Origin: Bradyrhizobium arachidis
GTDB taxonomy: Bacteria > Pseudomonadota > Alphaproteobacteria > Rhizobiales > Xanthobacteraceae
DNA length: 64,000 bases
Direction: 5' to 3'
Assembly: GCF_015291705.1 (NCBI RefSeq)
Contig: NZ_CP030050.1
Span: 2,976,001-3,040,000, forward strand
The position numbers and the translations under genes are program-made. Positions 5,466 through 59,939 of the stretch are shown piece after piece. The stretch's first letter is position 1. Each line of letters starts with the position of its first letter. A model generated the notes under the pieces. That model was not told where the DNA came from. It ran no database searches and saw only the letters and a list, made by a program, of their open reading frames with translations.

Positions 5466-6523
5466 GTCAGCGTGACGCGATCGGGACGCAGGGCCTTGGT
5501 CGGCCCTTCAACAACAAGCGACCTGAGCAGCTTGGGCAAGTCGCCCTTGGGCGGCTTGGCGAGACCAGCGGCGATGGCCCATTCCGCCTGCGAGACCATG
5601 TCGTCGATGAAGCGCTGGTCGAACCCGACCTTGAACGCGAAGGTCGAGGTTGCCTGCGCAATATCGGCGGGTGGCGTCTTGATGCGCTCCGCTATCAATT
5701 GTGGCCATTCGCGGTCGGTCGTGATCCGCTCTTCGGCGGCGAACAGGGCGCTCAGCGTCGCCCTGACCAGTTCCGGCTTCTTGTCGATGACGGCTTCCGT
5801 CGTTAGCAGCAGCTGGTGACTTTGGAAATAGCGCTCGATGCCGTCGAAGGTCATCTCCGCGACCTTGCCGCCGGACTGCCGCTGAGCCACCGCCACGGTC
5901 TGACTGCTCCAGCAGAAGCCGTCGATGTCGCCGCGCGTCAACGCGGTGGCCATATTGTTGGGCGCTAGGTCGACAATGGTGACGTCGCTGGCGCTAAGGC
6001 CGGCGAGTTCCAGATATTTAGCGATCAGATATTGACCCGATGTGCCGACCCGGGTCGCGATGCGCCGGCCCTTGAGGCTGGCAGGCGTCTTGGGATCGAC
6101 GCCGCCGTCGTTCCGTACAGCAATCTTCATGTCTCGCGAATAGCGGCTGTAGTTCGCGATGGCCACCGGCCGAAGGCCGGAGAGCGCGGCAAACACCAGG
6201 GGCGTATCCGTGGACGCGGAAAAATCGGCCGAGCCGGACAGCAGCGCCTGCATCGCGTCACGGCCAGATTCGAACGAGGAAGTCGATAGCTCGACGCCCT
6301 GTTTCTTGAAGTAGCCGGCAGCTTCGGCGACGTATGGGACGGCCCAAGTGTAGCCAACACCGCCATATGCCAGCACGCCGTTCAGCCGCTGCTCCGCAAC
6401 CGCTCGCCCGCCCAGGAGGGCTGCGGCACTGGCGCCGGCTAGACCAGCGAGCATGTTGCGGCGATCGAGCAAAGGCAAGCCGGAGCGTTCTGCGGCCAAA
6501 GCAGGGTATGACGAGCGAAACAT
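5462..6523 (-). CDS. SsuA/ThiY-like ABC substrate-binding protein
   Basis: A 353-residue periplasmic binding protein of the NMT1/THI5-like (SsuA, TauA) family. The N-terminus contains a Tat-like DRRNMLAGLAGASAAALLGG segment (about residues 20-40) followed by AVAEQ, a plausible cleavage region. The core contains the family pattern YVAEAAGYFKKQGVELST and GSADFSASTDTP. First gene of the operon that continues with an ATPase, a permease and an amidohydrolase, each joined by an ATGA overlap. An ATG at 6454 is an alternative start but would cut the twin-arginine region. The ligand is probably a sulfonate-like or related small compound. Confidence 0.82.
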   Translation of the reverse strand: MFRSSYPALAAERSGLPLLDRRNMLAGLAGASAAALLGGRAVAEQRLNGVLAYGGVGYTWAVPYVAEAAGYFKKQGVELSTSSFESGRDAMQALLSGSADFSASTDTPLVFAALSGLRPVAIANYSRYSRDMKIAVRNDGGVDPKTPASLKGRRIATRVGTSGQYLIAKYLELAGLSASDVTIVDLAPNNMATALTRGDIDGFCWSSQTVAVAQRQSGGKVAEMTFDGIERYFQSHQLLLTTEAVIDKKPELVRATLSALFAAEERITTDREWPQLIAERIKTPPADIAQATSTFAFKVGFDQRFIDDMVSQAEWAIAAGLAKPPKGDLPKLLRSLVVEGPTKALRPDRVTLT

Positions 6524-8263: not shown

Positions 8264-9312
8264 GACCGGAACGCGCGCCGCAGCAGTGCGTAATTGACCG
8301 CCGGGACAAACGAGGCCGGAACGTCGTCACGCTTGATCTCGCCCGTCTCGGCCAGGAACGCGGCGGCATCGCCGAGTGCCTTGATCAGCGGAGCGTCCTT
8401 AGCGGCGCCAGGCCCGTCGCCCCAGTATTTCGGGCCGAGCTGATCGTGGAACGTGGGATAGCGCAGCCCGGCCAGCGTATCGCGCACGGCTTCGAACGGC
8501 GCACCGAAATCCTTGGCCAGGATGCGCGATACGCCTTCCGGATCGGCGCGATAACGGTCGAACTGCGTCTGAACCGTTTGCAGCCACGCGATCACGCTGT
8601 CGGGATAACGTTCGGCGAACTCGGCGCGCACGACGGCACTGTTCCAGACATAGACGCCTGCAGGCTGTAATTGCTCCGAGACCAGCAATTGCCGACCGCC
8701 ATCGGCCAGGAGCTCGGCCCAGAACGGACCGTTGATATAGGTCGCATCGATGTCGCCGCGCTTCCAGGCCGCGATCGTATCCGGCTGGTTCAGCGGCAGG
8801 CGCTTGATCTTGCTGGCATCGAGCTTGTTGATCCGGATCAGCGCCTCGAGCGCAAAGGCCATCGTCGAGGAGGGCGCAACCGCGATGCGCTTGCCTTCGA
8901 GATCCTTGAGGCTGGCAAGGCCCGGTTTCGCGACCAGCCGCTCGCTGGTGGCGACGATCTCCGGTGATCCCAGGATCTGAATCGGGAGTTTGCGCGAAAG
9001 CCCGGCGACGATCGGGGTGTTGCCGAAGATTGCGAAGTCGATCTGCTTTGCGGCAAGCAGGGACAGGGCGGGCCCTCCCGACGGGAAGGGCACCCATTCG
9101 ATCCTGGTGCCGAGGGCCTTGTCGAAACTGCCGTCGGTTTTGCCGATCACCCAGGCGCGTGCCGCCGTGAGATAGCCGATGCGGACGACATCCGGCTTCG
9201 CTGTCGCCTGTGCCCGGCTGCGTCCCGCGGCGAGTGACAACGCTCCGGCGCCCAAGCCGAGGCGGAGCACGTCACGCCGTCCGAGCTTTCCCTTGCGAAT
9301 GTCTGTTGTCAT
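8260..9312 (-). CDS. SsuA-like ABC substrate-binding protein
   Basis: A 350-residue aliphatic sulfonate/taurine-type binding protein. The start at 9312 is preferred over upstream in-frame codons because it has an AGG Shine-Dalgarno and puts the Tat-like signal KLGRRDVLRLGLGAGALSLA right at the N-terminus, ending in ...GRSRAQA. The core has KQIDFAIFGNTP and LEGKRIAVAPSSTMAFALEA, typical of SsuA relatives. First gene of the operon with a permease and an ATPase. Confidence 0.82.
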   Translation of the reverse strand: MTTDIRKGKLGRRDVLRLGLGAGALSLAAGRSRAQATAKPDVVRIGYLTAARAWVIGKTDGSFDKALGTRIEWVPFPSGGPALSLLAAKQIDFAIFGNTPIVAGLSRKLPIQILGSPEIVATSERLVAKPGLASLKDLEGKRIAVAPSSTMAFALEALIRINKLDASKIKRLPLNQPDTIAAWKRGDIDATYINGPFWAELLADGGRQLLVSEQLQPAGVYVWNSAVVRAEFAERYPDSVIAWLQTVQTQFDRYRADPEGVSRILAKDFGAPFEAVRDTLAGLRYPTFHDQLGPKYWGDGPGAAKDAPLIKALGDAAAFLAETGEIKRDDVPASFVPAVNYALLRRAFRS

Positions 9313-32913: not shown

Positions 32914-33999
32914 ATGATCGGAATACGCACGCTGTTCCGCCATTTGCTCGCGGGAGCAGGACTCTTGATCGCGGCGTCGTCGCCGGGCTCGGCCGCCGAT
33001 ACGATCACGGTCAGGATCGGGTTTGCCTCGGTCGGCTCGGATAACCGCCAGTTCTCGGGCGGTTCATCCGCCGGGGTCGCGCACTCCGAGCACTATCTGG
33101 ATCGCGAGTTCAGTGACCGGCCGGATGTGAAGATCGAATGGTTCTTCTTCAAGGGGGCCGGTCCGGCGGTCAACGAAGCCTTCGCCAACAACCAGCTCGA
33201 TTTTGCGATCCAGGGCGATCTGCCGGAGATCATCGGCCGGGCGAACGGCTTGAAGACGAAGATTCTGCTGGCGTCGGGCGCGCATGCGCCGATCTATCTC
33301 GCGGTGCCCGTGGGCTCGCCGGTCCGCAAGGTCGCGGATCTGCGTGGCAAGAAGGTCTCGATCTTCAGGGGCACCAACAATCACCTTGCCGCCGTGAAGG
33401 TGCTCGCCGGCAACGGCCTTCAGGAGAAGGATGTGCAGGTGATCAACATGGACACCGCGACGACCAATGCCGCGTTGACCTCCAAGGATATCGATGCCGC
33501 CTTCGGCAATTTCCCGCTGGCGGGCCTCGCCGAGAAGAACATCGTCGAGATCATCTATACGACCAAGGGCGACAACCCGGCCTATGAGCGCCATTCCACG
33601 CTGATCGGGCAGGAGGCCTTCATCAAGGCGCATCCTGATGTCACGCAGAAGATCGTCTCTGCGATCGTGAAGGCCGCGCGCTGGTCGTCGGAGGAAGCCA
33701 ATCGGGAAGCTTTCTTCGAGTTCTCGGCGCGTACCGGCTTTCCGGCCTCGGGCTACAGGTTTGACTTCTCAAATCAGGAGCTGAAGTACCGTAACACGCC
33801 GATCGTCGATGCCTCGATCATCGAGAGCTACCGGGTGCAGGCAAAGCAGGCAAAGGAGTTTGGCCTCCTGCGTCGAGACGTCGACATCGACGGATGGTTC
33901 GATCGCTCGTTCCTCGATGCGGCGCTCAAGCAGCAGGGATTGGTGGGCTATTGGCAGGAATACGATGCGAGCGGCAAGCCGCTGGCGGCAGGACAATGA
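32914..33999 (+). CDS. SsuA-like ABC substrate-binding protein
   Basis: A 361-residue aliphatic-sulfonate-type binding protein. The signal peptide covers about residues 1-28 (LLAGAGLLIAASSPGSAAD). Core features: NEAFANNQLDFAIQGDLPE, DLRGKKVSIFRGTNNHLA and NMDTATTNAALTSKDIDAAF. An unusual insertion-like stretch SDNRQFSGGSSAGVAHSEHY follows the first strand. It begins 26 bases after the LLM gene and overlaps the ATPase gene by four bases. Probably a sulfonate or sulfone binder. Confidence 0.82.
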   Translation: MIGIRTLFRHLLAGAGLLIAASSPGSAADTITVRIGFASVGSDNRQFSGGSSAGVAHSEHYLDREFSDRPDVKIEWFFFKGAGPAVNEAFANNQLDFAIQGDLPEIIGRANGLKTKILLASGAHAPIYLAVPVGSPVRKVADLRGKKVSIFRGTNNHLAAVKVLAGNGLQEKDVQVINMDTATTNAALTSKDIDAAFGNFPLAGLAEKNIVEIIYTTKGDNPAYERHSTLIGQEAFIKAHPDVTQKIVSAIVKAARWSSEEANREAFFEFSARTGFPASGYRFDFSNQELKYRNTPIVDASIIESYRVQAKQAKEFGLLRRDVDIDGWFDRSFLDAALKQQGLVGYWQEYDASGKPLAAGQ

Positions 34000-36639: not shown

Positions 36640-37736
36640 ATGACATTAGATCGACGCGATACCTGGTCCCGGCGTGGGGTGCTCGGGCTGGCGGGGCTCG
36701 CCGGTGTGACTGCGCCGTTCGGCCTGATGCAGGCCGCGCGTGCATTTCCGGCGCTTGGTCTGGGCCAGATCGCCGATCCCTTGAGCGGCGCGCCAATCTG
36801 CAAGATCGCGAGCACGGAGGAGACCCCGAAAGGCCGCCGCGCCATATTCGCTTTGCCTATAACGGCACCGGCATCTGTACGGCAGCGGTGCCGGTCGCGC
36901 TGCACCGGGGATTTTTCGCGCGTCACAATCTGGACGTCGAGTTCCTGCAGCTCGCGGGCAATATTGACCAGATGCTCCAGGCGCTCGCGACCGACAAGGT
37001 GGATGCGGGCTCGAGCATGCTGCTCAACTGGCTCAAGCCGCTGGAGCAGGGCATCGACGTCAAGCTGACGACAGGCCTCCATGGCGGCTGCACCCGCCTG
37101 TTCGTGCGGAAGGAGTCCGGTTTCCAGGACATCAAGGATCTCAAGGGAAAGACGATCGGCGTGTCCAGCATTTCGGGGCCGCCGCGCAACTTCTTCGCGA
37201 TTCTGCTGTCGGACAATGGGCTGGACCCGCAGACCGACGTTCAGTGGCGCGAATTTCCGGCCGACCTGCAGTTGATCGCCCTGCAACGCGGGGAGATTCA
37301 GGCGATCGCCGATTCCGATCCGAACGCCTGGCTGACCGAGCGGCGTGCCAACGGCGACATCGTCGAGATCGCGTCGAACCTCAGCGATGACTACGCCAAT
37401 CTGTCGTGCTGCACCCTCGGAGTACGCAGCTCGCTTTGGGCGTCAGACCCTGCCGCCGTGAAATCGCTGACCTACGCGATTCGCGAGGCGGCCCATCACG
37501 TCGCCGAGAATGCCGATGACGCTGCCGAGATCTTCGCGCCCTACACGCCCAAGGTCGCGGTGGCCGACCTCGCGGCGATGCTCCGCAGCCATACCCACGG
37601 GCATCATCCGTCGGGCGCAGAGCTGCGGAAGGAGGTCGTGAAGATCACGTCCGATCTAAAACGTGCGACGATCATCAAGCCCAACACGGATCCGGCAAAG
37701 CTTGCCAATCGCGTCGTGGTTGACGTCGAAGCGTGA
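36640..37736 (+). pseudogene. SsuA-like binding-protein gene with a frameshift
   Basis: The gene begins with a good Tat-like signal (DTWSRRGVLGLAGLAGVTAP, frame of 36640) and continues to about ...CKIASTEETP. The rest of a normal binding protein continues in the frame of 36888: HIRFAYNGTGICTAAVPVAL, KESGFQDIKDLKGKTIGVSS, up to VVVDVEA. The switch lies between about 36820 and 36845 (around CCCCGAAAGGCCGCCGCG) and equals a one-base loss. No classical slippery heptamer is present, so it is either a real inactivating mutation or a sequencing error. Without the shift the protein would be about 365 residues. It follows the two-permease operon by about 180 bases and may be a spare ligand binder for it. 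Confidence 0.7.
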
Positions 37737-37961: not shown

Positions 37962-38180
37962 GTGACCGAGAGTACGAATTCGGCGCGGATCATTGATCTC
38001 GATGCCTATCGGCTGAAGAGGCGCCAGCAGGCGTCCGAAGCTGTGATCGGGCCGCAGCAGAACGCCGCCGGCAACCCGTCTTTTGGCGGGGCCATGCCGC
38101 TGCTCTGGTTCTGGCCGACCTGGGTTTGGGTTGCGGTACCCGTCCCAGCGGTATCGGCCGTGCAGTGGGATGCTTCATGA
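37962..38180 (+). CDS. Small hypothetical protein coupled to XRE-cupin regulator
   Basis: A 72-residue ORF with a GTG start. The N-terminus ARIIDLDAYRLKRRQQASE is charged and the C-terminus PLLWFWPTWVWVAVPVPAVS is tryptophan-rich and hydrophobic, possibly a short membrane segment. The TGA overlaps the ATG of the regulator gene (ATGA), which supports real translation. No family recognised. It might anchor or modulate the regulator, or simply serve to couple translation. Confidence 0.55.
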   Translation: MTESTNSARIIDLDAYRLKRRQQASEAVIGPQQNAAGNPSFGGAMPLLWFWPTWVWVAVPVPAVSAVQWDAS

Positions 38181-38800
38181 GCGACGGCAGCGTCGCTCCA
38201 TCCTCGGACACGAACCTTCCATCGCCTACTGACCTGGAGTTGCCGCTCGTCCTTGGGCGCAACCTGCGGCGCCTGCGAACCAGCCGCGGCCACTCCCTCG
38301 AGCGGCTTGCGAAGCAGTCAGGCGTCAGCCGTGCCATGCTGGGCCAGATCGAGACAGGAAAGAGCGTCCCGACCATTGCATTGCTGTGGAAGGTCGCGAA
38401 CGCGCTTCACGTTCCCTTCGCCAACCTTTTGCAGACAGACGCGGCGCGAGGACCAGTGGTCTTGCGGCGCGGCGATGCCAAGCTGCTCTCCTCGAGTCAG
38501 GGACAGTTCACGTCGCGGGCACTGTTTCCATTCGATGGTAATCATCAGGTCGAGTTCTACGAGCTAAAAATGGGTCCTCTCCATCGCGAGGCGGCCGAGC
38601 CACATGCGGCAGGCACCCGTGAAAATCTGTTCGTCGCAAAGGGGGCGGTCGAGATCACCGTTGGCCTCGAAAAACCACAGACCTTGATGGAAGGCGATGC
38701 CATTCTGTTCGAGGCCGACGTGCCCCACGTTTACAAGAATCTGGTCGCCAGCGAGGCCACTCTTTACCTGGTCGTGACCTGCGCGGAGGACGTCGTCTAA
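38177..38800 (+). CDS. XRE-family regulator with C-terminal cupin domain
   Basis: A 207-residue protein: helix-turn-helix at about residues 27-80 (NLRRLRTSRGHSLERLAKQS, VSRAMLGQIETGKSVPTIAL), then a cupin_2 sensor domain around 130-195 (EPHAAGTRENLFVAKGAVEI, GDAILFEADVPHVYKNL). This PuuR/SutR-like architecture is common for metabolite-responsive repressors; SutR of E. coli regulates sulfur use. The start at 38177 overlaps the small upstream ORF. The target and ligand are unknown. Confidence 0.85.
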   Translation: MSDGSVAPSSDTNLPSPTDLELPLVLGRNLRRLRTSRGHSLERLAKQSGVSRAMLGQIETGKSVPTIALLWKVANALHVPFANLLQTDAARGPVVLRRGDAKLLSSSQGQFTSRALFPFDGNHQVEFYELKMGPLHREAAEPHAAGTRENLFVAKGAVEITVGLEKPQTLMEGDAILFEADVPHVYKNLVASEATLYLVVTCAEDVV

Positions 38801-38860
38801 CGCAAACGGGCCGGCGAAAGCCGACCCGAAGCAACCGTCCGTCCTTGCGAGGATCGCGGC

Positions 38861-39154
38861 TCAGGCAGCTTTCATCGGCATGCACATCATCATCATGCCG
38901 CCGCAGCACATCATCATGGGCATGCCCATCTGCATCATGTTGGTCATGCTCTCGCAGCACTTCATGAACATGTCCTTCATGGACGGATCCATCGGCGTCA
39001 TCTCGCAGGTCATGCCGGTGGGGGTCATGGTGTACTTCATCTGGCAGGGCATCATCATCGGCATGCCCATCATGTTCATCATCGGCATCATGTTGCCGGC
39101 CATGGCGGGGCTCATCATCATCGGCATGGGCATCATCTTCATCGCGGTGTTCAT
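38861..39154 (-). CDS. Extremely methionine-rich small protein
   Basis: A 97-residue protein with 41 Met and 7 Cys, so about half of its residues contain sulfur. It has runs such as MMPMMNMMGMPMMM, a less biased middle (TPTGMTCEMTPMDPSMKDMF) and a Cys/Met-rich end (KCCESM, MMMCCGGMMMMCMP). The start at 39154 has GGAG with a 7-base spacer; an ATG at 39160 is too close to that site. No signal peptide. Met/Cys motifs could bind Cu(I) or Ag(I); alternatively, given the organosulfur setting, it could store sulfur. No family assigned. An opposite-strand frame is open here only because of the ATG repeats. Confidence 0.65.
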   Translation of the reverse strand: MNTAMKMMPMPMMMSPAMAGNMMPMMNMMGMPMMMPCQMKYTMTPTGMTCEMTPMDPSMKDMFMKCCESMTNMMQMGMPMMMCCGGMMMMCMPMKAA

Positions 39155-39388
39155 TGTCATTCTCCGGGGACCAAGTAGGAAGCACTCATTTGCGCTGCCA
39201 AAGGAGATAAAATGAACTGCACGGGAAGTGAATCGGGAAATGTTTGTCTCGTTCGCTTTCATCCAAGAAAATGGAAACGCTGTCGAACCTGAAGGCTGGA
39301 TCTACCAATATAACAGATATGAATCTTTTATATTGGAGATGCGGCGGACTCGGACTTGGGATCGCGTCGATCCGTCGCCGAGCAATAT

Positions 39389-43429: not shown

Positions 43430-44446
43430 ATGTCCAAGCAGCGGTATCCTGAAGTTTCAGAAGACTCGGTGAACCTGTTGCGTCGCCGCTTGCTCCAGGG
43501 GCTTGCAGTCGGGTCCGCAGCATTCGCGCCGGGAACGATCTTCGCGCAGAATGCGGCGGTCGAGAATCGTGGTGCCAGGCCCAAGGAAATTCGCTTCGCT
43601 TATCAGCGCGGTGGGATTCTCGTTGTCGCGCAGCAGCAGAAAGTACTCGAGAAGTTCTTTCAGCCGCGGGGGAGTGAGATCGTCTGGAAACTATTCTCTT
43701 ACGGCAATCCCGCGCTCGAAGCCGTCAATGTCGGCAGCATGGACTTTTCGTCGTCGGGAAACACACCGATCATCTTTGCGCAAGCCGCTGGTTTCGATGT
43801 CCAGTACATCGCCGCGCAGCGGTCCGGCGATGGCGGAGAGGGGATCGTCGTTCTTCCGCAGTCGGGCATCAAGCACGTTGGGGAATTGAAGGGCAAGAAG
43901 GTTGCTGTCGCGAAGGGAACCAGTTCGCATTACTTCCTCGTTGCCGCGCTTCAGAAGGCTGGCCTTGGATACGAGGACGTGACCGCGGTATTCTTGGCGC
44001 CTTCCGACGCGCCCGGGGCGCTTTCGCGAGGCGATGTCAGCGCGTGGGTCGTTTGGGACCCCTATCTCGCCCTGGCCGAGCAGAAGTTCAACGGGCGCGT
44101 GATTGCGTCATTGGGAGCGGATATCAAATCCTACAATTTTTTGGTCGTCCGGCGCGGTTTCGTGAATGAGAACCCGCAGGCCGTCAACGAGGTGTTGGCG
44201 CAACTCCGGCCGATCGGATCATGGGCGCAGGATCACCGGGGCGAGATCGCCCAGCAACTCGCCGAGATCACCGGGATTGAACTTGAGACCCAACGATTGG
44301 CGGCAGAGCGCGCGAATTATGCGATTGCGCCGGTTACGGACGACGTGATTGAGAGTCAGCAGGAGGTGGCCGATCTGTTCTTCAAGCTGGGTCTCATTCC
44401 CAAGGCCATCAAGATTCGCGATGCGGTGTGGAACTGGCAGGCGTGA
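43430..44446 (+). CDS. SsuA-like ABC substrate-binding protein (orphan)
   Basis: A 338-residue aliphatic sulfonate binding protein with a signal region LLRRRLLQGLAVGSAAFAPG ending near FAQNA. Core: KEIRFAYQRGGILVVAQQQK, NVGSMDFSSSGNTPIIFAQA, LKGKKVAVAKGTSSHYFLVA and SRGDVSAWVVWDPYLALAEQ are close to SsuA. The ATG at 43430 follows GGAG by 6 bases. No ATPase or permease follows; an amidohydrolase gene does (64 bases). It may use a transporter encoded elsewhere in the window. Confidence 0.86.
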   Translation: MSKQRYPEVSEDSVNLLRRRLLQGLAVGSAAFAPGTIFAQNAAVENRGARPKEIRFAYQRGGILVVAQQQKVLEKFFQPRGSEIVWKLFSYGNPALEAVNVGSMDFSSSGNTPIIFAQAAGFDVQYIAAQRSGDGGEGIVVLPQSGIKHVGELKGKKVAVAKGTSSHYFLVAALQKAGLGYEDVTAVFLAPSDAPGALSRGDVSAWVVWDPYLALAEQKFNGRVIASLGADIKSYNFLVVRRGFVNENPQAVNEVLAQLRPIGSWAQDHRGEIAQQLAEITGIELETQRLAAERANYAIAPVTDDVIESQQEVADLFFKLGLIPKAIKIRDAVWNWQA

Positions 44447-58934: not shown

Positions 58935-59939
58935 TCAGAGCTGGGCGAGATGGTCGGTCACCTTGACCGGCTCGGGCAAAACCTTGCGGGCGACGAGCCA
59001 GTCGGCAGCCTTTTGCAGCTCGCTGATGAAGCGCTCGTCGTTGACGCCGAAGTAGCGATACTGGCGCTTCAGCGCGATGAACTGGTCGCGAACCTCGTCG
59101 CTGTACTTGCCCGCTTTCTGGGCAATGTACTCGGCGTCCTTGCCGTTCTCCGAGATCCACTTGCCTTCGGCGCGGAACGTATCGTTTACGGCGCGGACGA
59201 GGGCAGGGTTGTCGGTCGCGAATTTGCGGGTGGTGAGGTAAGACGTGTAGTCGATCTGGAAGTCGAGATCGCGACCCTCAAGGAAGATGTCGTGCGCCTT
59301 GTATTCAAGCCGGGCAATGTCGACGCCGGGGCTCCACATCGACCAGGCGTCGACCTTGCCCGAGGCGAGGGCGGGCGCCGCATCGGGCGGATTGAGATAG
59401 ACGAACTTGACTTTGGACCGGTCGACCTTGTGCTTCTCGAGCGCTGCGACCAGCAGGAATTCGCCGAGGCCGGAGCGGTTGACCGCGACCGACTTGCCGA
59501 CGAGGTCCTCGATCTTGTCGATGCCGGAACCGTCCTTGGCGATGATTGCCGTGGTGCGCGGCTCGTAGACCACGAACTGGGTGAACACCAGCGGTGAGCC
59601 CGCGATGATCGCGGCCAGCGCCGGCGTCGTGCTGCCGCCGAAGCTGAAGTCGGCGCTGCCGCCGGTGACCGCCTGCAAGGTCGGGGCGTGGTTCGGGAAG
59701 GGCCCGAGCCATTCGACCTTGATGCCGTCCTTGGCCAGCATTTTCTCGAACTCGCCGCGCTCCTTGGCGATCAGATTGAGGCCGCTCAGGCCCCAGGTCA
59801 GGCGAACGGTGTCGGTGGTCCGGCCAGGCGCGGCCTGGGCGAATTCGCTGATATTCATGCCGGCGAGCGCGCCAATTCCGAAGGCTGCGGAGCCGAGAAA
59901 GCTGCGCCGGGATGGTTTGGCGATTGAGTAGTCGGACAT
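58935..59939 (-). CDS. SsuA-like ABC substrate-binding protein
   Basis: A 334-residue aliphatic sulfonate binding protein. Signal: PSRRSFLGSAAFGIGALAGM, Tat-like. Core: LIAKERGEFEKMLAKDGIKV, GGSADFSFGGSTTPALAAII, LVGKSVAVNRSGLGEFLLVA and ASGKVDAWSMWSPGVDIARL follow SsuA closely. GGAAGG is 6 bases before the ATG. It is 18 bases downstream of the ATPase gene. Confidence 0.87.
   Translation of the reverse strand: MSDYSIAKPSRRSFLGSAAFGIGALAGMNISEFAQAAPGRTTDTVRLTWGLSGLNLIAKERGEFEKMLAKDGIKVEWLGPFPNHAPTLQAVTGGSADFSFGGSTTPALAAIIAGSPLVFTQFVVYEPRTTAIIAKDGSGIDKIEDLVGKSVAVNRSGLGEFLLVAALEKHKVDRSKVKFVYLNPPDAAPALASGKVDAWSMWSPGVDIARLEYKAHDIFLEGRDLDFQIDYTSYLTTRKFATDNPALVRAVNDTFRAEGKWISENGKDAEYIAQKAGKYSDEVRDQFIALKRQYRYFGVNDERFISELQKAADWLVARKVLPEPVKVTDHLAQL

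Follow-up and report, generated by a model that had tools for sequence, protein, structure and literature searches.

A methionine-rich protein paired with an XRE-cupin regulator in Bradyrhizobium and other soil bacteria: a candidate sulfur reserve

Introduction

Bacterial reserves exist for carbon, nitrogen and phosphorus, some bacteria store elemental sulfur, and a paper of 2024 reportedly describes the storage of elemental sulfur in an encapsulin. We know of no bacterial protein that is made to hold methionine. Whether such a protein might exist is the question raised by a short frame in a 9.87-Mb Bradyrhizobium genome, in which 41 of 97 residues are methionine and 7 are cysteine. If the reading proposed below is true, this protein evolved to bear sulfur on about half of its residues, and some soil bacteria may possess a protein-based sulfur reserve of an undescribed kind. 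The window is the whole stretch of 64,000 nucleotides that was analysed (C1:2976001-3040000), and positions are counted from its first base. An initial annotation, made from the letters of the window alone, had proposed a real gene that might encode a sulfur store, a Cu(I)/Ag(I) binder or a target of methionine oxidation.

Coding Status of the Met-Rich Frame

The frame lies on the minus strand at 38861..39154, with its stop codon at 38861-38863. The coordinates and composition given at the outset (97 residues, 41 Met, 7 Cys) were borne out; the protein also contains 11 Pro and lacks Leu, Ile, Val, Trp, His and Arg altogether, and among the 270 open frames of at least 60 residues in the window the one that includes the gene has the highest methionine content. 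All 41 of its ATG triplets fall in the coding phase, as had been claimed, against a maximum of 26 ATGs per frame (mean 16.4) in 5,000 dinucleotide-preserving shuffles of the same stretch. The ribosome-binding site that had been recognised, GGAGA at 39161..39165 (minus strand), stands 6 bases 5' of the ATG, and its position is kept in all 14 aligned Bradyrhizobium/Tardiphaga upstream regions. An alternative start at an in-frame ATG two codons further 5' (39160) is possible, and the frame stays open up to an ATG at 39262, an extension that is absent from some relatives.

The initial annotation had named conservation of the reading frame in related genomes as one of the points on which the gene would stand or fall, and the frame is conserved. 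Over the core, 14 Bradyrhizobium/Tardiphaga orthologues give a pN/pS of 0.146; variable sites number 10, 13 and 26 at the first, second and third codon positions. A profile of 37 sequences retrieves 415 protein clusters at E≤1e-3. This pattern of substitution indicates that the Met-rich frame is a real gene whose core is under purifying selection. A low-complexity artefact was ruled out by the conservation of the frame, and a simple repeat, the reading against which the gene had originally been argued, by the conserved core at residues 37-91.

A GC-rich hairpin, terminator-like for the Met gene by consensus match only, lies at 38807..38828 (minus strand), between its stop codon and that of the neighbouring regulator gene, and similar hairpins separate the two genes in most of the related loci inspected. 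In Rhizobium and Shinella plasmids (loci L119-L122), a 'hypothetical protein' is annotated on the strand opposite the Met gene, and this was the case in 4 of the 8 annotated plasmid loci inspected. Because annotation sometimes draws the gene on the wrong strand in this way, the family is partly hidden in databases.

Protein Architecture

The N-terminal third of the protein (residues 1-36; 39047..39154, minus strand) is a tail of Met with Pro, Gly, Asn and Ala, whose sequence and length vary among relatives. It is predicted to be disordered, and the AlphaFold2 pLDDT is below 50 for nearly all of residues 1-33. The remainder (residues 37-97; 38864..39046, minus strand) is the conserved core, for which a strand-strand-helix-strand-strand arrangement is predicted over residues 37-91. 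In the core, pLDDT is about 80 over residues 41-70 and declines to 73 and then 59 over the two following blocks of ten; for the whole model, mean pLDDT is 62 and pTM 0.38. Searches with this model in Foldseek and VIA-align returned no convincing known fold, an absence that does not prove a new one. No signal peptide was apparent on inspection by eye.

The motifs CxMxC, GMxC, CC and GMPMMMxCGGM are conserved in the core across the family. All of 83 relatives have G47, P79 and M87; among the cysteines, C50, C67 and C84 are present in 98, 95 and 99%, and C37, C41 and C66 in 81, 83 and 73%. Mean methionine content in the same 83 relatives is 40% (range 24 to 46%), and Leu, Ile, Val and Trp together account for 2%. 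Both the composition and particular positions are thus conserved in the family. The extreme composition is conserved across taxa although Met has displaced nearly all aliphatic residues, which shows that such a composition is selectable; a predicted ordered core almost devoid of Leu, Ile and Val also raises a question of folding.

Three copies, L064 and L065 (genomes G041 and G460) and L118 (Mesorhizobium AR10), have lost the Met-rich tail and have no operator-like site, and retain most of the core as well as the regulator. They are either decaying genes or a core-only form.

Distribution of the Family

A single-sequence search with the Met-rich protein found 51 relatives at E≤0.01. The source names attached to these relatives and to the 120 listed matches of the larger profile search include Bradyrhizobium, Rhizobium, Rhodoplanes, Chelatococcus, Microvirga, Devosia, Polyangium and Sorangium. 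By sequence likeness, relatives are present in Bradyrhizobium, in other Alphaproteobacteria and in another lineage of the phylum, and, going by the submitted names, in myxobacteria too. In whole genomes, the Met gene is uncommon and patchily distributed, being found in 15 of 265 from the genus Bradyrhizobium, 11 of 397 from the order and 8 of 398 from a sample of the phylum. Since only 15 of the 265 Bradyrhizobium genomes carry it, the gene is dispensable. A double-length form with two cores occurs in 5 of the 8 carriers from the phylum sample, all from one family outside the order. On plasmids, the gene was found in 44 records (38 Rhizobium, 5 Shinella and 1 Mesorhizobium), and two Microvirga plasmids additionally carry it; the plasmid records held no match to the two-domain form (P0051 as query).

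The initial annotation knew of no family with this composition, and no named family matched the protein here: NCBIfam gave 0 families at E≤1, PHROGs gave no match, and Pfam and PDB sequences gave nothing beyond noise. Two Pfam matches were judged to be noise, PF07685 (GATase_3; E 0.12) and PF23189 (3 of 83 members, best E 0.0062). A riboswitch or other RNA element was likewise rejected, all Rfam matches being below their gathering scores (best E 0.00087); these sub-threshold matches were mostly to snoRNA models over the ATG-rich stretch. A viral or phage origin was considered and dropped: viral contigs contained 113 pattern matches, yet tblastn found zero relatives there, and no Met-rich relative was found in phage records with the relative P0030 as query. 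In the open-access literature, covered through the titles and abstract openings of the best-ranked papers, neither the family nor a bacterial methionine store was recognised.

A Convergent Pair with an XRE-Cupin Regulator

Tail-to-tail with the Met gene lies a gene for an XRE-cupin transcription regulator (38177..38800, plus strand). Its product has the layout of that family, an N-terminal HTH_3 domain (51.6 bits; cut-off 23) and a C-terminal Cupin_2 domain (34.1 bits; cut-off 27.2). Neighbourhoods were compared over 34 loci that remained after 9 of 43 fetched were removed as same-genome copies; some of these depend on one another, Bradyrhizobium supplying most of the first 15. Clustering of open reading frames placed the regulator near the Met gene in 30 of the 34, and tblastn added L061, L076 and L080, giving 33; in the remaining one, L077, only about 100 bases of contig are left beyond the Met gene. 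Each of the 33 loci has the two genes in convergent orientation, and the pairing is therefore not explicable by a shared operon. ABC-transporter clusters apart, no second neighbour is common to most of the 34 loci. The XRE-cupin link noticed at the outset is thus stronger than could be known from the window alone, the regulator adjoining the Met gene in 33 of 34 loci; a LysR regulator, also mentioned there, is near the gene in only a few of the 34.

Whole genomes give the same picture, in counts that scored at most 11 or 7 initial candidates from each genome and may leave weaker relatives uncounted. The 15 of 265 Bradyrhizobium genomes with the regulator at E≤1e-40 are the same 15 that hold the Met gene, and in the order it was found at E≤1e-35 in all 11 Met-positive genomes. 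A further 11 genomes of the order, all from one family, hold a regulator relative (42-55% identity) with no Met-rich frame within 1.5 kb. Of the 44 plasmid records with the Met gene, 42 have the regulator next to it and on the other strand, once across the origin of the record. On plasmid CP050551 the regulator is split over frames beside the Met gene; R. lentis NZ_CP071457 has lost it, and there the Met gene too is broken at its end. Thirteen further plasmid records have the regulator: 2 (Microvirga) hold the Met gene and 11 are from Azospirillum, and in the 5 of these 11 that were examined no Met gene lies within 6 kb of it. In a regulator tree of 53 rows, the label 'Met-linked' needs 3 changes where shuffles need 13.9 (none of 500 reached so low a number), a signal that near-copies inflate.

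Comparison of these sequences indicates that the Met gene and the regulator are a conserved convergent two-gene unit. Since the pair keeps together in differing surroundings, its movement as one unit is probable. A role in defence was not retained, PADLOC returning generic HTH matches only. Among PDB entries, the regulator is closest to 1Y9Q of Vibrio cholerae (E 4.6e-23); passages of a study of Pseudomonas XRE-cupin proteins state that the cupin pocket of 1Y9Q contains D-methionine, and that the Pseudomonas proteins are inhibitors of their neighbours and are exchanged together with them (PMC7901475).

A Candidate Operator and a Second Leader Element

An operator-like palindrome lies upstream of the Met gene at 39309..39332 (no strand assigned), within a longer palindrome at 39305-39336; the ATG and the far end of the site are 178 bases apart. 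The form common to the upstream regions is TATAACGGA-N6-TCCGTTATA. At up to 4 mismatches, every one of the 13 full-length Bradyrhizobium loci has it at one place 5' of the Met gene, as do L018 and L119-L122. A weight matrix built from ten sites was run over 39 loci, with distances counted from a script-chosen start codon, and its best locus-wide hit fell at -168 to -180 in 22 of the 39. These 22 comprise 11 of the 11 training-site loci and 11 of the 28 others, including Rhodovulum (L008) and Kaistia (L019). Weaker hits occur at the same place in L067 and L075, and weak ones at -187 in L125 and L126. With this matrix the palindrome was not found in 13 of the 39 loci, among them the 5'-truncated L064, L065 and L118 and all of the two-domain loci. 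Sites of such a score occur at a rate of at most 0.0006 per 13-base slot, true sites included.

The regulator may be the protein that binds this palindrome. A search of the genome of the window (G000) at up to 3 mismatches to the pattern gave this site alone, and if the palindrome is the site of the regulator, the regulator may have no target there other than the Met gene. Locus L055 has an additional site at -42 of the Met gene. Autoregulation through the palindrome was set aside, as the site was not seen before the regulator gene in most loci; the exceptions are the close relatives L019 and L075, with a like site 218 and 213 bases before it. A second conserved leader element, TCCATTTTCTTGGATGAAAGCGAA, lies at 39252..39275 (minus strand) and was recognised by its conservation in related upstream regions. 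Its general form, TCCATTTT(C/G)TTGGAtGAAAgCgAA, stands at a fixed distance 3' of the palindrome in Bradyrhizobium loci and is less well kept elsewhere.

Sulfur Genes and Other Neighbours

Close to the pair in the window is a gene for an SsuA-family (sulfonate) substrate-binding protein (36888..37736, plus strand; NMT1 E 5.1e-17; SsuA_fam E 1.7e-21, below the curated cut-off). Further SsuA-family matches lie at 5660-6346, 8329-9186, 33061-33915, 43613-44434 and 58944-59774, and beyond. Of the best 20 of the 35 SsuA-family matches in this genome, 11 fall within 2.92-3.07 Mb. By these family matches the window belongs to an island of sulfonate-uptake genes.

The organosulfur surroundings that had been noticed in the window recur in related loci, where genes of sulfonate, taurine and methionine metabolism lie near the Met gene. 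NCBIfam scans of 30 hand-chosen neighbours, up to about 8 kb from the gene, identified above curated cut-offs SsuA (L064), TauA (L068, L069), SsuD (L075), a MetY-type sulfhydrylase (L059), a MetQ-family protein (L019) and MsrB (L072), the last about 1.2 kb upstream of the Met gene with one gene between. Below cut-off, best or nearly best matches were SsuA-family proteins (L052, L064, L067, L078), cystathionine beta-synthase (L071, L008) and cystine permease (L072), and members of the mercaptopyruvate sulfurtransferase family, also below cut-off, lie about 3 to 5 kb from the gene in L067 and L081. Plasmid annotation near the pair includes msuE, tauA, ssuD, cysE, a sulfonate transporter and gamma-glutamylcyclotransferase. 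With a limit of 20 kb, chosen after the coordinates were known, an SsuA-family gene is near the Met gene in at least 9 of 14 genomes (at most 1.6 expected; P 1.9e-6), in at least 4 of 9 when Bradyrhizobium is counted once (P 0.007), and in at least 3 of 8 without Bradyrhizobium (P 0.03); in 5 of the 14, there is none within 20 kb among the matches listed.

The pair is found in other contexts as well, with TonB receptors and nitrogenase-like genes. One plasmid has a tyrosinase and a PpoB2 copper-chaperone-family gene 3.6-5.9 kb from the pair, and another an SCO gene about 3.5 kb away. Downstream of the regulator in L070 are NifD/NifE/NifK-type nitrogenase-like genes, below every curated cut-off, and clustered counterparts of these stand beside the pair in L074. 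Upstream of the Met gene in L057, L061 and L063 are a 4Fe-4S ferredoxin and a conserved flavoprotein of the fumarate-reductase/L-aspartate-oxidase type, which also resembles adenylylsulfate reductase, though less closely.

Relatives of the Regulator without the Met Gene

Nine of the 11 unpaired regulator relatives in the order adjoin a sulfate permease gene. CysT scored above cut-off in 7 of the 7 neighbours tested, and the neighbour was judged by eye in L111 and L113; L115 and L117 are the relatives without it. The cysT-linked relatives have no palindrome. In A. brasilense, the regulator relative follows a gene for a sulfate-binding protein, and in Azospirillum an msrB gene is annotated 4.5 kb from one. 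In Azospirillum sp. B510, the relative is one gene away from the type 2A encapsulin SrpI (PF19307, E 1.8e-107), whose cysteine desulfurase cargo was identified above cut-off (NF041166). According to passages of an encapsulin paper, SrpI is induced by sulfur starvation (PMC8049743). The regulator is probably a switch that follows sulfur status.

Operator-like sites precede the SrpI gene of Azospirillum sp. B510 (score 21.6) and a lactonase-family gene of A. thermophilum (score 22.5), both near unpaired regulator relatives (L131:2533-3741 and L128:3187-3210), hinting at a wider regulon there. The idea that SrpI and the Met gene exclude each other was abandoned: SrpI was found in 0 of 136 Bradyrhizobium genomes, control genomes were likewise negative, and nothing follows from the count.

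A Sulfur Reserve and Its Rivals

Much of the initial annotation stood, namely the real gene, the organosulfur surroundings, the XRE-cupin link and the lack of a named family. As to function, the reading we favour, tentatively and at slightly under an even chance, is that the Met-rich protein is a sulfur-controlled reserve of methionine and cysteine within a probably mobile two-gene unit of sulfur homeostasis. The regulator would bind the palindrome and silence the Met gene; on sensing a sulfur metabolite (methionine or one of its derivatives) through the cupin domain, it would allow expression. The product of the gene would be a cytosolic protein with Met in place of nearly all aliphatic residues, in which a small fold bearing Cys is joined to a Met-rich tail whose length is free. 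Peptide-bound Met and Cys could then keep reduced sulfur and methyl groups until proteolysis frees them, somewhat as cyanophycin serves for nitrogen. Such a reserve would explain the composition, the free tail, the scarcity of aliphatic residues, the optional presence of the gene and its sulfur setting. That this is the first dedicated protein-based Met or sulfur reserve in bacteria, with a methionine-sensing XRE-cupin switch of its own and exchanged among soil bacteria together with that switch, is a claim we make with rather more reserve.

A reserve leaves the near-invariant cysteines without explanation. Since C50, C67, C84, G47 and P79 are near-invariant and a pure store needs none of them, more than bulk composition has been selected. 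Metal buffers and sulfur carriers account for the cysteines but not for 40% Met, and for this reason the reserve is put forward with restraint and its rivals are kept. The absence of the palindrome in 13 of 39 loci and beside the cysT-linked regulator relatives, its weakness in 4 loci, the 5 of 14 genomes with no SsuA-family gene within 20 kb among the matches listed, the existence of non-sulfur contexts and the dispensability of the gene also count against the reserve. An unlikely, though still serious, candidate is a cytosolic buffer of soft metals, Cu(I)/Ag(I) or Hg and Cd, with the Met clusters and conserved Cys as ligands: the CxMxC, CC and MxM-type patterns, the cysteines at 95-99%, and the tyrosinase, PpoB2-family and SCO genes of two plasmids fit it, but no copper family appeared among the 30 chosen neighbours scanned, the regulator is an XRE-cupin protein with relatives adjoining sulfate-uptake genes, and 40% Met far exceeds the need of a binding site.

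Rather improbable is a carrier of sulfane sulfur or persulfide, in which the conserved cysteines would accept sulfur and the Met richness would protect them or set solubility. No sulfurtransferase or desulfurase is a fixed partner across the 34 loci, since only the regulator and ABC-transporter clusters are common to most of them, and the 40% Met would be left unexplained; near-invariant Cys within a small predicted fold, the mercaptopyruvate-sulfurtransferase-family genes near L067 and L081, and the regulator relative one gene from SrpI and its desulfurase speak for it. Quite improbable, too, is a sacrificial scavenger whose Met would absorb hypochlorite or peroxide and be reduced by Msr enzymes, as is reported for the Met-rich peptides MrpX and BcrX. 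MsrB near the gene in L072 and msrB near an Azospirillum regulator relative agree with this idea, but MsrB was identified in 1 of 34 loci among the neighbours scanned, neither msrPQ nor an ECF sigma pair was seen among neighbours scanned or annotated, and the protein has neither an MXKDX-family match nor a signal peptide apparent by eye. A chance non-coding frame, or a toxin-antitoxin addiction module, is very improbable indeed. Some annotators do put the gene on the opposite strand, and gene pairs with an HTH member can be addiction modules; against this stand the pN/pS of 0.146, the third-position variation, the conserved ribosome-binding site and a composition kept across families, as well as the orientation of the genes, which face each other in 33 of 33 loci and are not in the co-directional operon typical of type II systems, and PADLOC matches that are generic HTH only. 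Of the functions considered for the Met-rich protein, a reserve would fit sequence and context best, and the paired regulator and single palindrome render the function testable.

Comparison with Known Systems

Several known systems share features with the pair. Small Met-rich bacterial proteins with a dedicated neighbouring regulator are found in MrpX and BcrX, of the MXKDX-repeat kind, from Azospira and Brucella. Published accounts place both beside yedYZ/msrPQ-type reductases together with an ECF sigma/anti-sigma pair, and describe MrpX as periplasmic. In contrast, the protein described here has no family match, an XRE-cupin regulator, sulfur-uptake neighbours and conserved Cys. NCBIfam includes an MXKDX model; for the MXKDX-repeat family, the search with the Met-rich protein gave 0 NCBIfam families at E≤1 and only noise in Pfam. 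The Ctr1 tails, CusF and Csp are Met-rich or Cys-rich copper proteins with clusters suited to Cu(I), and the conserved Met and Cys of the present family would allow Cu(I) binding. It differs from them in its much higher Met content, in the absence of a family match (nothing beyond noise for copper storage or chaperone families in NCBIfam, Pfam and PDB sequences) and in that no consistent copper neighbourhood was seen.

Among storage systems, excerpts from the literature present plant sulfur-rich seed proteins, such as delta-zein, as Met-rich storage proteins; they are eukaryotic and unrelated to the Met-rich protein. Their Met content is lower than that found here. The type 2A encapsulin SrpI is, like the pair, a sulfur-regulated protein system, and a regulator relative lies one gene from it in Azospirillum sp. 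B510, but it consists of a shell and an enzyme, and the Met-rich protein has no sequence match to it (P0002 gave no match to the shell-protein family PF19307).

On the side of the regulator, PauR, PsdR and ErfA of Pseudomonas and SutR/YdcN of Escherichia coli are local repressors that combine an HTH and a cupin domain and are encoded beside their likely target. SutR is an XRE-cupin protein, and, as excerpts of published work indicate, it shares a link to sulfur with the regulator of the Met gene. The neighbours of the Pseudomonas regulators mostly encode enzymes and transporters, according to passages of the work on them, whereas the partner here is a Met-rich protein without a known family. 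The novelty lies in the Met-rich protein and in the pairing; the regulator half is of a known kind.
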